From an uncultured Alphaproteobacteria bacterium (lineage in GTDB: Bacteria > Pseudomonadota > Alphaproteobacteria > Rhizobiales > Aestuariivirgaceae): DNA of 64,000 nt. Shown here piece after piece: positions 13,700-17,144 of the stretch. Under the pieces are notes generated by a model. It was not told where the DNA came from. It saw only the letters and a list, made by a program, of their open reading frames with translations, and did not search any database. Both the position numbers and the translations under genes were made by a program. The stretch spans positions 62,001 through 126,000 of the forward strand of contig CALMWF010000039.1 of NCBI GenBank assembly GCA_937873445.1, given 5' to 3'. The stretch's first letter is position 1, and every line of letters begins with the position of its first letter.

Positions 13700-15158
13700 G
13701 CCGCCTGTTTATGGTCCGGATGGCGGGATAGAGATTCACATAGCGGTGATAGGCATCATCATAGGCCTGGCGCAGCCCTTGATCGGGCCTGAAGGTCCGC
13801 GCCCGCTTGGGCGGGGTCAGCACCGTGGCGGGTGGCGCTCCGGTTGCCGCAATCATGCCAAGCCGGGCGGCTCCGAAGGCCCCGCCCACCTCGCCCGCGG
13901 CGGGCAGGTCAATGGGCAGGTTCAGCACCGTGGCCATGATGCTGAGCCACAAAGGCGAGCGCGAGCCGCCGCCCACCGCCCACAGCCGGTCAATGCTGGT
14001 GCCGGTGGCGGCTATGGCGTCAAGGTTTTCGCGCAGGGCAAAGGCCACCCCCTCCAGCACCGTCTGGGTCAGAACCTTGCGGTCCGTCTCATGGGCCAGA
14101 CCCATGAGCAGCCCGCGCACCTCGGAATCGCCCACCGGCGTGCGCTCGCCCGAAAGATAGGGCAGAAACAGATTGGCCGCCGGACCCCTTGTCCGCGTTC
14201 CCAGCGCGGCAAGAAGCTTCGGGACCGGCGCGGCCAGAAGGCCCGACAGCCACTCCAGACTGCCCGCCGCATTGAGAATGACGCCCATCTGGTGCCAGCA
14301 GTCGGGCACGGCATGGCAGAAGGCGTGCACGGCGCGGGCCGGATTGGGCCGGAACTGGCGGTTGGCCACGAAGATGACGCCCGATGTGCCAAGCGACAGG
14401 AAGGCGTCATTGTCATGGATGGCGCCCATGCCGCAGGCCGAGGCCGCATTGTCGCCACCACCACCGGCCACCACCGGCCGCTTTGCCATGCCCCAGGCGC
14501 GCGCCACGGCGGGCGACAGCCTGCCCGTGGCAGCGCTGCCCTCAAACAGTTCCGGCATCTGGTCGCGGCGCATGGCCGAGGCGGCAAGCAATTCCTCCGA
14601 CCACTGACGTTTCCCCACATCCAGCCAATGGGTGCCCGATGCGTCCGACAGGTCCGAGGCATAGTCACCGGTCATGCGATAGCGGATATAGTCCTTGGGC
14701 AGCAGCACCTTGGCCACACGCTCAAAGGTCCGGGGCTCGTGTTTCCTCACCCACAGAAGCTTGGGCGCGGTGAAGCCGGCCAGCGCACTATTGCCGGAAA
14801 TGTCTCGGGCGCGGGGCTCGGCGGTTTCCATCTCGGTGCATTCGGCAAAGGCCCGCGCATCATTCCACAGAATGGCCGGACGCAGCACCTTGCCTGAGGC
14901 GTCAAGCAGGGTGGCGCCATGCTGCTGGCCGGACAGGCCAATCCCCTCCACCGCCGCCATGGCCCCGGGCTTCTTCTTGCGCAGCTGGGCAATGACGGCA
15001 TTGCAGGCGCGCCACCAGTGCGCAGGGTTCTGTTCCGACCAGCCGGGCCTGGGCCGCGATACGGTGAGGGGAGAGGAGGCAGCGGCCATGATCTTCTGGC
15101 GCCCGTCCATGACAACGCCCTTGACCGACGACGTGCCGAAATCCAGACCGAGAAACAT
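13692..15158 (-). CDS. xylB: Xylulokinase (FGGY family)
   Basis: A 488-residue FGGY carbohydrate kinase. It starts MFLGLDFGTSSVKGVV and has GIGLSGQQHGATLLD and PAILWNDARA. These match xylulokinases (the SGQQHG motif) rather than glycerol kinases. The ATP domain has LSLGTSGVIFVAN, LFLPYLSGERTP and WAVGGGSRSPLW. It phosphorylates D-xylulose to xylulose-5-phosphate, the substrate side of rpe in this window. No xylA or xylose transporter is nearby. Its 3' end overlaps the ferric-reductase-like gene by eight bases. Confidence 0.87.
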   Translation of the reverse strand: MFLGLDFGTSSVKGVVMDGRQKIMAAASSPLTVSRPRPGWSEQNPAHWWRACNAVIAQLRKKKPGAMAAVEGIGLSGQQHGATLLDASGKVLRPAILWNDARAFAECTEMETAEPRARDISGNSALAGFTAPKLLWVRKHEPRTFERVAKVLLPKDYIRYRMTGDYASDLSDASGTHWLDVGKRQWSEELLAASAMRRDQMPELFEGSAATGRLSPAVARAWGMAKRPVVAGGGGDNAASACGMGAIHDNDAFLSLGTSGVIFVANRQFRPNPARAVHAFCHAVPDCWHQMGVILNAAGSLEWLSGLLAAPVPKLLAALGTRTRGPAANLFLPYLSGERTPVGDSEVRGLLMGLAHETDRKVLTQTVLEGVAFALRENLDAIAATGTSIDRLWAVGGGSRSPLWLSIMATVLNLPIDLPAAGEVGGAFGAARLGMIAATGAPPATVLTPPKRARTFRPDQGLRQAYDDAYHRYVNLYPAIRTINRRHD

Positions 15159-15296
15159 GGCAGTGCTCCATCACATCAGGGAAGCATGATCCCACTTTGC
15201 CGGCCTATCAACTGCCAAGACTGGCGGATGCGCGGCAACGCATCAATCCATTGCCCGGACCGGCCGCGCGGCCCCTTGACTCCGGCACAGGCATGT

Positions 15297-15311
15297 GAAC
15301 AATACAAGAAC
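15297..15311 (+). promoter_or_regulatory. LexA (SOS) box
   Basis: GAAC, seven bases, GAAC, an exact match to the alphaproteobacterial LexA operator GAAC-N7-GAAC (equivalently GTTC-N7-GTTC). It lies about 100 bases upstream of the Y-family polymerase start in the region between it and the divergent xylB, and indicates DNA-damage induction of the polymerase operon. Confidence 0.8.
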
Positions 15312-15409
15312 GATCGCAACGTGGGGCGTTCGATCGCGTGACCCGAAGGGGTGTGTCCGGAAACCATGAGCATAGAGCCTGCCCAACTCCTGAACCGGAG
15401 AACGCCCCC

Positions 15410-16657
15410 TTGCGCCTGCCCCAGACCATTGAGCGCCTGTATCTTGATTTCGATGGCTTCTTTGCCTCGGTGGAGCAGCAGGCCACGCCGCGCCTGCGCG
15501 GCAGGCCGGTGGGCGTGGTGCCCTTTGCCGGCACCAGCAGAACCTGTGTCATTGCCTGTTCCAAGGAGGCCAAGGCGGCAGGCTGCAAGAATGTGATGGC
15601 GGTGGATGAGGCAAAGGCCATCTGCCCCGATCTGGTGCTGGTGCCGCAGCGCCCGGACCTTTACCGCCGCGCCCACAACGCCCTCATCGCCGAGATCGAA
15701 AGCGTCATTCCGGTGGACGCCATCAAGAGCATTGATGAACTGACCTGCCGCCTCGACGAGCACCAGCGTCATGCGCCGGAGGCGCTGGCCGCACAGATCA
15801 AGCGCACCCTGGCCCTGAATGTCGGACCCTATGTCACCTGCTCCATCGGCTTTGCCGCCAACCGGCAACTGGCGAAGATGGCGGGCAAGGTCAACAAACC
15901 CGATGGCGTCACCATCTGGCATCCGGCCCAAATGCCGGGTCCTCTGCTGGCCCAGCCCCTTGACAAGGTTCCGGGGGTTGGCCCGCGCATGCAGCGCAAG
16001 CTCGCAGGCATGGGCATTCACGACATGCCGGCCCTCTACCATCTTCAGCCCAAGCATATGCGGCGCATCTGGAACAACGTCACCGGGGAGCGTCTGTGGT
16101 ATGCCCTGCACGGCTATGACATCCAGGCGCCTTCCACCGAGCGCGGCATGATCGGCCATGGCCGGGTGCTGCCGCCGGAGGCGCGGTCGCTGGCCGCCGC
16201 CCATGAGATTGCCCGGCTGCTGCTCATCAAGGCGGCGCGGCGGCTCCGCCGCGCCAATTATTACTGCTCCGGCCTGTGGGTCTGGCTCGCCATCAAGGAT
16301 GGCTCATGGCAGGGCTCGCGCTCATTGCCCATGGTGCAGGACGATGCGGCGGTGCTGTCGGCGCTCCGGATCGTCTGGGGCCAGGCGGCGGACCAGCTGC
16401 CAAAACCTGTCACCGTCTACCGGGTCGGGGTCACGCTCACCCATCTCACCCCCGACAGCGAGCGGCAGGGCGACTTGTTTCTGCGTGATGATGTGCTGCG
16501 CCGGCGCTGGGAGGCGGCCACCCGGGCCAGTGACGCGCTCAATGCCCGCTATGGCCGCACCGTGGTGAGCCTTGGCCCGTGGAACCCGCCGGCGGGCGGC
16601 CATGTGGGCGGCAAGATTTCCTACACAAGAATTCCGTCAGCGGAGGATTTTCTATGA
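15410..16657 (+). CDS. Y-family DNA polymerase (SOS-regulated, DinB/Pol IV-like)
   Basis: A 415-residue Y-family polymerase. The first catalytic motif is YLDFDGFFASVEQ, and the second catalytic pair is the Asp-Glu of KSIDELTC (residues 109-110). GFAANRQLAKMAGKVNKPDG and the helix-hairpin-helix VPGVGPRMQRKL follow. A QGDLF pentapeptide at residues 353-357 fits a beta-clamp-binding motif. The C-terminus is short and ends TRIPSAEDFL. TTG 15410 is preferred because GGAG lies nine bases upstream; a GTG at 15338 would add 24 unlike residues. It should carry out lesion bypass. The SOS box lies upstream and the next gene overlaps by four bases (ATGA). It belongs to a DinB-related lineage distinct from classical DinB and ImuB, so no symbol is given. 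Confidence 0.88.
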   Translation: MRLPQTIERLYLDFDGFFASVEQQATPRLRGRPVGVVPFAGTSRTCVIACSKEAKAAGCKNVMAVDEAKAICPDLVLVPQRPDLYRRAHNALIAEIESVIPVDAIKSIDELTCRLDEHQRHAPEALAAQIKRTLALNVGPYVTCSIGFAANRQLAKMAGKVNKPDGVTIWHPAQMPGPLLAQPLDKVPGVGPRMQRKLAGMGIHDMPALYHLQPKHMRRIWNNVTGERLWYALHGYDIQAPSTERGMIGHGRVLPPEARSLAAAHEIARLLLIKAARRLRRANYYCSGLWVWLAIKDGSWQGSRSLPMVQDDAAVLSALRIVWGQAADQLPKPVTVYRVGVTLTHLTPDSERQGDLFLRDDVLRRRWEAATRASDALNARYGRTVVSLGPWNPPAGGHVGGKISYTRIPSAEDFL

Positions 16658-16905
16658 ACTGGAAAACCACCCTGCAGGTGCGCGATCTGGAACCCCACCA
16701 GCGCCTTGAAATGACCTGCCGCACCTGCGGTCATGTTCACTACCTGACCAAGCCCCAGATCATGACGGAGGTGGAACGGGGCTATCTCTATCTGGATGAG
16801 CTGGAACGCCAGACCTGTTGCCGGGCACGGGGCTGTCACGGCGCGGTGCGGCTTGCCATCGTGCGCACCGGCGAAACCAGTGCCTTCGTCGGCGGCATGG
16901 CATGA
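16654..16905 (+). CDS. Small cysteine-rich (zinc-ribbon-like) protein coupled to the Y-family polymerase
   Basis: An 83-residue protein. ATG 16654 overlaps the polymerase stop (ATGA) behind a GGAGG ribosome site, so it is translationally coupled. Cys22-x2-Cys25 (TCRTCGH) and Cys55, Cys56 and Cys61 (QTCCRARGCHG) give a likely four-cysteine zinc ribbon. Between them lies YLTKPQI...GYLYLDELE. I do not recognise a named family. Position, coupling and shared SOS control suggest an accessory factor of the polymerase, perhaps DNA-binding or a clamp or template recruiter, but this is inference. It is followed by a short tandem repeat and the convergent tRNA-Arg. Confidence 0.8.
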   Translation: MNWKTTLQVRDLEPHQRLEMTCRTCGHVHYLTKPQIMTEVERGYLYLDELERQTCCRARGCHGAVRLAIVRTGETSAFVGGMA

Positions 16906-16912
16906 CCCATCC

Positions 16913-17060
16913 AAAGCGCACGTTGAGCGCAGCGAAGCGCAAGCTTTGGATGAAAGAATCAAAGCGCACGTTGAGCGCAGCGAAGCGCAAGCTTTGGATG
17001 AAAGAATCAAAGCGCACGTTGAGGACCGCAGAGCGGTCCGAAGCGCAAGCTTTGGATCAA
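16913..17060. repeat. Short tandem repeat, 48 bp unit, about three copies
   Basis: Two identical 48 bp copies (16913-16960 and 16961-17008) are followed by a third, altered copy from 17009 to about 17058. Each copy is bounded by AAAGCGCA and CAAGCTTTGG, which can fold back, and contains GCGCAGCGAAGCGC, also self-complementary. In the third copy the inner part is replaced by GGACCGC-AGA-GCGGTCC, a perfect hairpin. There are no spacers, so it is not CRISPR. It sits between two convergent genes and may be a REP-like 3'-end element. Confidence 0.85.
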
Positions 17061-17067
17061 CAGGAAA

Positions 17068-17144
17068 TGGCGCGCCGAGCAGGATTCGAACCCACGACCC
17101 CCAGATTCGTAGTCTGGTGCTCTATCCAACTGAGCTACCGGCGC
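17068..17144 (-). tRNA. tRNA-Arg (anticodon ACG)
   Basis: The minus strand folds with acceptor GCGCCGG/TCGGCGC, D arm GCTC/GAGC, and anticodon stem CCAGA/TCTGG around CTACGAA, so positions 34-36 are ACG (read as ICG after deamination). The T arm is GTGGG-TTCGAAT-CCTGC. The discriminator is G and CCA is encoded (17068-17070). Its first ten bases are also the last codons and stop of the upstream sensor kinase gene. Confidence 0.96.

Follow-up and report, generated by a model that had tools for sequence, protein, structure and literature searches.

A Putative SOS-Controlled, Mobile Gene Pair of a Y-Family DNA Polymerase and a Zinc-Ribbon-Like Protein in Alphaproteobacteria

Small subunits decide when error-prone DNA polymerases act, and, to our knowledge, UmuD' is the one mutasome small subunit known in detail. 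The Pol V complex to which it belongs (UmuD'2C) has the plasmid cousins MucAB, RumAB, ImpAB, and RulAB. Here we describe a gene pair found in a 64,000-nucleotide (nt) stretch of DNA, referred to below as the window (contig CALMWF010000039.1 of assembly GCA_937873445.1, positions 62,001 to 126,000), from an uncultured alphaproteobacterium of the family Aestuariivirgaceae, the genome of which comprises 2.58 Mb in 47 contigs (98% complete). The pair consists of a Y-family DNA polymerase gene and an overlapping gene for a small four-cysteine protein. Its sequence anatomy, the gene overlap, a conserved LexA-type box, the reciprocal linkage of the two genes, and their mobility were all confirmed. 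The pair looks like an undescribed, movable mutation-making machine, and we consider it rather probable that it is a Pol V-like mutasome in which the polymerase is served by an unrelated dedicated small subunit.

Like Pol V, the pair is a predicted LexA-controlled operon, often plasmid borne, that combines a small protein with a Y-family polymerase, and the C-terminal tail of its polymerase may hold a segment resembling DUF4113 and the RecA N terminus (RecA-NT), a resemblance that is weak in the window clade. Unlike in Pol V, the polymerase gene comes first, the small protein has four cysteines and no match to UmuD-type S24 peptidases (Pfam and NCBIfam, E value of 1), and the polymerase falls far short of the UmuC model cutoff (65.8 against 431 bits). 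The YqjW/UvrX-YqjX/YolD systems of Gram-positive bacteria similarly join an SOS Y-family polymerase and a small nonpeptidase protein in one operon, and YqjX/YolD is a proposed UmuD counterpart according to the available parts of PMC6511836 and PMC12926913. However, YolD has a predicted SH3-barrel fold, whereas the window protein gave no YolD match at an E value of 1, and the host belongs to the Alphaproteobacteria. The mutasome ImuA-ImuB-DnaE2 is also alphaproteobacterial and LexA controlled, but the window polymerase has intact catalytic motifs, and the window genome has no DnaE2 over the cutoff and only one other IMS gene, the motifs of which we read as DinB type.

The nearest sequence relatives of the polymerase form a sister clade, which by our own assignment belongs to the PolY-RecA type described in the available part of PMC12926913. 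A perfect LexA-type box is present in 26/31 sister loci, but the small gene was not found with the sisters. Polymerases associated with SRAP (YedK/HMCES) proteins, treated in the available parts of PMC3765255 and PMC12926913, are comparable in that an SRAP gene lies in the examined flanks of 13 of 24 loci of the pair (two of the matches being weak); it stands, however, outside the overlap-coupled genes, and in the window genome it is located elsewhere. The same part of PMC12926913 lists 11 DnaE2/PolY module types, with UmuD', YqjX/YolD variants, ImuB-C, and SRAP-like proteins as small subunits; "zinc" occurs in it solely in a reference title, and the available part of PMC6511836 does not mention the word. 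PMC3765255, in its available part, covers SRAP and ImuB-C and describes two zinc-chelating domains in SRAP-Ku neighborhoods, one of which might possibly be related to the small protein. No description of the polymerase/zinc-ribbon pair was found in the full-text literature searched, which leaves most subscription papers outside.

The features of the window locus are listed in Table 1. A preliminary description, made from the letters of the window, had reported a perfect LexA box, a Y-family polymerase with intact catalytic residues and a clamp motif, an ATGA overlap behind GGAGG, and an 83-residue second protein, and all of these were found as described. The polymerase start is more likely TTG 15410 than GTG 15338, which would give 439 amino acids (aa), because relatives carry ATG at the former point. 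Between positions 15150 and 17100 there is a single promoter-like site (0.2 expected from shuffles), and its -10 element falls within the LexA-type box, a placement as expected for a repressor site.

Table 1. Features of the polymerase/zinc-ribbon locus and its surroundings (window coordinates)
Feature	Position	Strand	Remarks
Promoter-like site	15276..15303	+	TTGACT-16-AACAAT; TTGACT at 15276, AACAAT at 15298-15303
LexA-type operator (predicted)	15297..15311	+	GAACAATACAAGAAC; perfect GAAC-N7-GAAC
Y-family DNA polymerase	15410..16657	+	415 aa from TTG 15410; stop 16655-16657
QGDLF clamp-binding-like motif	16466..16480	+	Within the polymerase frame
Polymerase C-terminal tail	16508..16654	+	Weak DUF4113/RecA-NT-like segment DALNARYGRTVVSLG; conserved GGKISYTRIP..EDF end
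GGAGG Shine-Dalgarno-like site	16642..16646	+	Within the final polymerase codons
ATGA overlap	16654..16657	+	Polymerase stop/small-gene start
Four-cysteine zinc-ribbon-like protein	16654..16905	+	83 aa; C22/C25/C56/C61; conserved C-terminal tail
48-nt repeat	16895..17060		Three copies; directly behind the small gene, ahead of tRNA-Arg
tRNA-Arg gene	17068..17144	-	Adjoins the cassette

The box is the only perfect GAAC-N7-GAAC of the 64-kb window (both strands checked), but since 0.81 occurrences would be expected there by chance, the window box alone is weak evidence. A perfect LexA-type box in either orientation precedes the polymerase in 26/26 loci, where no more than 3 of the 200 shuffles made for each locus equal it, as well as in 5/5 further genomes (L064, L065, and L109 to L111) and in all 12 copies from plasmids or viral contigs in which the polymerase match is full length. 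Combined, 43/43 copies having a polymerase start and upstream DNA carry the box, and this recurrence rules out a chance occurrence. Locus L114, which lies at a contig edge, and locus L118, whose polymerase is interrupted by an insertion sequence (IS), were left out of the count, while L017 (ambiguous bases) and L036 (frame broken) are among the 26 loci used for the box and for gene coupling and were excluded from the tree. The box and its position near the start correspond to the operator of the alphaproteobacterial LexA regulon (GAAC-N7-GAAC/GTTC-N7-GTTC), and the Caulobacter LexA motif is given as GTTCN7GTTC in the available part of PMC12700426. In the window genome itself, the same perfect box lies ahead of recA, lexA, ssb, and recN (4 of 20 box stretches examined); most of the other examined boxes fall within frames or precede genes for which no SOS role is known. 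A fourth protein tested in this connection, from L104, had no family match. The pattern occurs there 49 times versus 25 times for the reversed control pattern, so about half of the boxes of this genome are background. We conclude from these sequence patterns that LexA is predicted to bind the box and that DNA damage probably turns the operon on. Most sister polymerases have the box as well, yet no zinc-ribbon gene was detected downstream of them in 31 loci, three of which (L143, L148, and L152) had odd or cut ends, so that SOS control probably predates the zinc-ribbon partner.

The linkage of the two genes is reciprocal. A scan of the genome collection with two peptide patterns, which detects close relatives only, returned 25 small-gene loci. 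All 24 full-length genes are directly behind the polymerase (its frame being interrupted in L017 and L036), and the 25th locus (L041) holds a fragment, residues 54 to 82 of the small protein, without a polymerase. Among 61 relatives, the small gene was found in eight, each time behind a polymerase of at least 63% identity, and with none of the five sister polymerase genes. In 385 genomes of the class, the small gene was clear in three, two further weak matches being other zinc-ribbon-like proteins; in 385 genomes drawn in the same way, the polymerase lineage was found in 29. The small gene accompanies the polymerase in all three class genomes in which the latter has 63 to 100% identity, and it was not found in any of the 26 with a polymerase at 35 to 44% identity. 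A phylum sample of 398 genomes gave five clear matches including the window genome, all within its class, plus a distant cousin (L112). In these searches, at most 14 (class) and 13 (phylum) candidates per genome were scored. On plasmids, 12/12 polymerases at 60 to 80% identity have the small gene, in contrast to 0/2 under 60%. The preliminary description had suggested, as an inference, a dedicated zinc-binding partner of the polymerase, a view that homologues lying mostly away from polymerase genes would have refuted. The two genes were found together in 24/25 scan loci, 8/8 relatives with a match, and 12/12 plasmids with a near-full-length clade polymerase, which supports the suggestion. In the tree, the 24 polymerases with the small gene are split from five sisters by a branch of 97/90 support, the outgroup and some sisters being on long branches. 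The set of 31 chromosomal loci includes near-copies (L029/L030 in one genome, L039/L040, and L027/L028).

The arrangement of the two genes is also conserved. In 26 loci, the stop and start codons overlap by 4 nt (16 loci) or 1 nt (9 loci) or are separated by 1 nt (1 locus), and GGAGG or GAGG is found 7 to 12 nt upstream of the small-gene start in 25 of them. The distances among the polymerases and those among the small proteins correlate with r of 0.83 (23 loci).

Four kinds of exception to pairing were seen: a fragment, remnants adjoining tet genes, a copy with an IS-cut polymerase, and distant stand-alone zinc-ribbon cousins. The small gene is present in 37 plasmid records. A near-full-length polymerase accompanies it in 12 of them (nine of these were examined), and five examined of the other 25 comprise three remnants in which a scrap of the polymerase lies next to tet genes (H9, H21, and H36), an IS-cut polymerase (H12), and a distant cousin (H37). 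The remote matches L066, L067, L112, and L123 are without the GFVGG tail, and their examined flanks contain no such polymerase. The idea of a small-protein family living mainly away from polymerases was rejected, since 24 of 25 loci are paired and the remote matches are distant cousins. A perfect GAAC-N7-GAAC/GTTC-N7-GTTC lies near the 5' end of two cousin frames without a polymerase (L066, positions 1465 to 1479; L112, positions 2076 to 2090), whereas L067 and L123 have no such box; a wider SOS zinc-ribbon family is possible on sequence grounds. The L066 cousin had no match in 199 genomes of the order, a set without a positive control, so that this result carries no weight.

The small protein is under constraint. 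Ten positions (W3, D11, E19, C22, C25, C56, C61, F78, G80, and G81) are invariant in all 26 aligned rows, which reach down to 37% identity, and the C-terminal tail reads AFVGGMA in the window, while relatives mostly have GFVGG[LM]A. In 5/5 pairs, the small gene shows a third-position excess, which indicates that selection acts on the protein. The CxxC motif of the preliminary description (C22 and C25) stands, while its CC-x4-C is better given as C-x4-C, C55 being variable among the aligned relatives. Two conserved cysteine knuckles, as in zinc ribbons, are present, and zinc binding is accordingly predicted from the sequence. No Pfam or NCBIfam family passes its cutoff; the sole match at an E value of 1 is Zn_ribbon_Nudix (15.0 bits against a cutoff of 25.6). 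Searches of PHROGs with three small proteins gave nothing under an E value of 0.05, and the best hit of the small family in a PDB sequence search had an E value of 0.37. In an AlphaFold2 model, strands at residues 17 to 22, 28 to 32, and 64 to 70 lie beside the two cysteine pairs. Residues 74 to 83 are modeled with low confidence although they hold invariant residues, and this end would be a good candidate for a binding peptide.

In the polymerase, the IMS domain (PF00817) was recognized above the cutoff with an E value of 2.3e-36. The catalytic acidic residues of Y-family polymerases lie in a DxD motif near the N terminus and in SxDE; the corresponding LDFDGFFASVE and SIDEL are intact in the window polymerase and conserved across the clade. 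In the relatives compared, the clamp motif differs from QGDLF and reads, for example, QMDLL, QLDFL, or QTDML. The best of the DinB/Pol IV models of NCBIfam reached 154.2 bits against a cutoff of 367, and the other listed Pol IV models were also below theirs. The tails of the clade and of its sister both end lN.RyGk.vv.lG ... GKI.yTRIP..EdF and are clearly homologous (hhalign probability, 99%). According to the available part of PMC6511836, the DUF4113/RecA-NT motif of polymerase tails is homologous to the RecA oligomerization motif and probably binds RecA. A contact with RecA through the clade tail is plausible. In two sister tails, DUF4113 was detected with E values of 3.5e-4 and 9.6e-4, still under the Pfam cutoff, and the sister-clade tail scored 20.95 in a profile comparison with the RecA N termini of relatives, the shuffled controls having been made for the clade tail only.

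The window genome has two IMS genes; the other one has, in our reading, DinB-type motifs, and no perfect box was found on its contig. No DnaE2 was found above the cutoff in this genome, the single match scoring 604 against 939 bits. With a single other IMS gene, no perfect box on the contig of that gene, and no DnaE2 above the cutoff in this 98% complete assembly, the polymerase of the pair may be the only SOS-inducible translesion polymerase of the genome. Membership of the pair in an imuA-imuB-dnaE2 cassette, which the preliminary description had also dismissed, was rejected on account of the intact catalytic motifs, the lack of a DnaE2 over the cutoff, and the presence of only one other IMS gene. 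In the sister clade (loci L128 to L153 and L050 to L054), no DnaE2 over the cutoff was found in the five genomes tested (G021, G022, G039, G043, and G054).

The pair was identified on plasmids of Rhizobium, Agrobacterium, Mesorhizobium, Shinella, Pseudochrobactrum, Maritalea, Yoonia, and an Aeromonas. According to PLSDB typing of the examined plasmids, two are conjugative (Rhizobium and Aeromonas) and one is mobilizable (Maritalea). Four viral contigs carry the small gene, three of them together with the polymerase and the box; phage records gave no match. Qipengyuania algicida has two near-identical copies of the pair (L029 and L030) on different contigs, the Novosphingobium polymerases nest with those of Mesorhizobium and Aminobacter (97/96), and within the genus of the window organism the small gene is present in only 6 of 37 genomes, its own included. 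The plasmids, viral contigs, duplicate copies, Novosphingobium nesting, and patchy distribution in the genus point to horizontal spread of the pair.

These data are consistent with the following mechanism. LexA bound to the box, which covers the -10 element, would keep the operon off. DNA damage would lead to RecA-dependent inactivation of LexA and to synthesis of what is presumably one mRNA, from which translation would yield the polymerase first. The small protein would follow through translational coupling at the Shine-Dalgarno-like site within the last polymerase codons, so that the two would be made in a fixed ratio. The active translesion polymerase would dock on the sliding clamp through its Q motif, and its C-terminal tail would probably contact RecA. 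The zinc-ribbon-like protein would serve the polymerase as a dedicated accessory subunit, corresponding in function to UmuD' in Pol V or to YolD/YqjX in Bacillus subtilis, and may bind it via its conserved N-terminal arm (W3 and D11) or its conserved, disordered C-terminal tail. It would control assembly, lesion access, or the grip on DNA, with mutagenesis as the predicted output.

Several points weigh against this proposal of a two-component mutasome. Any co-inherited operon would show such linkage and such a correlation of distances. The sister polymerases, moreover, have retained a LexA box but do without the small gene, which is therefore not required by the polymerase type as such. In the tail, DUF4113 has an E value of 0.16 in the window and of 0.05 to 0.16 in four clade tails, all under the Pfam cutoff, and the RecA-NT score of the clade tail (14.8) lies within the range of column shuffles (maximum, 20.2). 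The AlphaFold2 model of the small protein is moderate (predicted local distance difference test score, 77; predicted template modeling score, 0.58) and gave no Foldseek match at an E value of 0.001. Its best structural neighbor, HypA, is weak (Z scores of 4.5, over 50 residues at 2.2 Å, and 4.2), followed at a Z score of ~3 by an MCM helicase and small chains of the 50S ribosome; this likeness is too weak to assign a family. The distribution of DnaE2 points both ways. In genomes at least 90% complete, DnaE2 is lacking in 8/11 with the polymerase or its sister versus 4/40 others (P = 1e-4), which favors the proposal, but for the pair alone the figures are 4/7 versus 8/44 (P = 0.044) and, in all 61 genomes, 4/8 versus 12/53 (P = 0.19), and these P values are too small since related genomes are treated as independent. 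Four of the eight genomes with the pair do possess DnaE2.

The small protein could instead be an independent SOS effector that shares the operon and makes no contact with the polymerase, for example, a binder of single-stranded, abasic-site, or primer-template DNA or a factor recruiting SRAP or SSB. Such a role would agree with the faint resemblance of the model to the zinc ribbons of MCM helicases, which act on DNA, with the four distant cousins that have no such polymerase nearby, and with the frequent vicinity of SRAP genes. We regard it as unlikely, however, because close full-length homologues occur without the polymerase only where the latter is cut or reduced to scrap, because the coupling would fix the ratio of the two proteins, and because the small gene was not found with the 26 sister polymerases. 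Less likely still is a brake or assembly checkpoint for the polymerase or the SOS response, such as a DinI-like antagonist or an equal-dose antimutator: no match to a known inhibitor family was obtained, and the sister polymerases manage without the small protein, although translational coupling would be equally apt for an inhibitor and for a subunit and mobile elements may profit from limiting the damage to their hosts.

That the small open reading frame is a functionless passenger kept by its position is very improbable. It does persist, whole or broken, next to tet genes on plasmids of gammaproteobacteria where the greater part of the polymerase has been lost, yet the ten invariant columns, the third-position excess, and its retention with 3/3, 8/8, and 12/12 clade polymerases in the three data sets argue for a selected function. 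The dedicated-subunit mutasome is the reading that we prefer.

A broader proposal is more doubtful, and we make it tentatively: the pair might represent a mutasome type in addition to the 11 that were listed in 2026, with a RecA-linked Y-family polymerase and an obligate zinc-ribbon subunit as an independent counterpart of the UmuD'/YolD solution, carried through the Alphaproteobacteria by plasmids and phage-like elements, able to replace ImuAB-DnaE2, and often accompanied by an abasic-site shield (SRAP). A metal-binding alternative to UmuD' on plasmids and viral contigs would provide SOS mutagenesis to bacteria that have neither Pol V nor ImuAB-DnaE2, and comparison of unrelated proteins could then reveal what is demanded of the small subunit of a mutasome. 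Genes that plasmid records label type VI secretion protein ImpB and hypothetical protein would also receive names.

SRAP genes were found at L029, L030, L032, and L037 to L040 (positions ~1000 to 1720), downstream of the pair at L017, L018, L020, L021, and L026, upstream at L019, and at L117 and L122. In seven chromosomal loci and on the plasmid of L122, the SRAP gene is divergent across the same LexA-type box, an arrangement like a bidirectional SOS promoter.

In the three gammaproteobacterial tet plasmids examined, all that is left of the pair is the end of the polymerase with an intact or broken small gene. These remnants (L058, L059, and L061) border tet(Y) and tet(C) on plasmids of Aeromonas, Salmonella, and Escherichia coli, which hints that the tet regions once derived from an alphaproteobacterial element. 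On the Agrobacterium plasmid pEL101-131 (L063), which is possibly a phage-plasmid, the pair adjoins a gene annotated as a phage prohead protein and is two genes from a protelomerase gene. In the window, the cassette is followed by the three-copy repeat and the tRNA-Arg gene (Table 1), and tRNA genes are a common kind of integration site.

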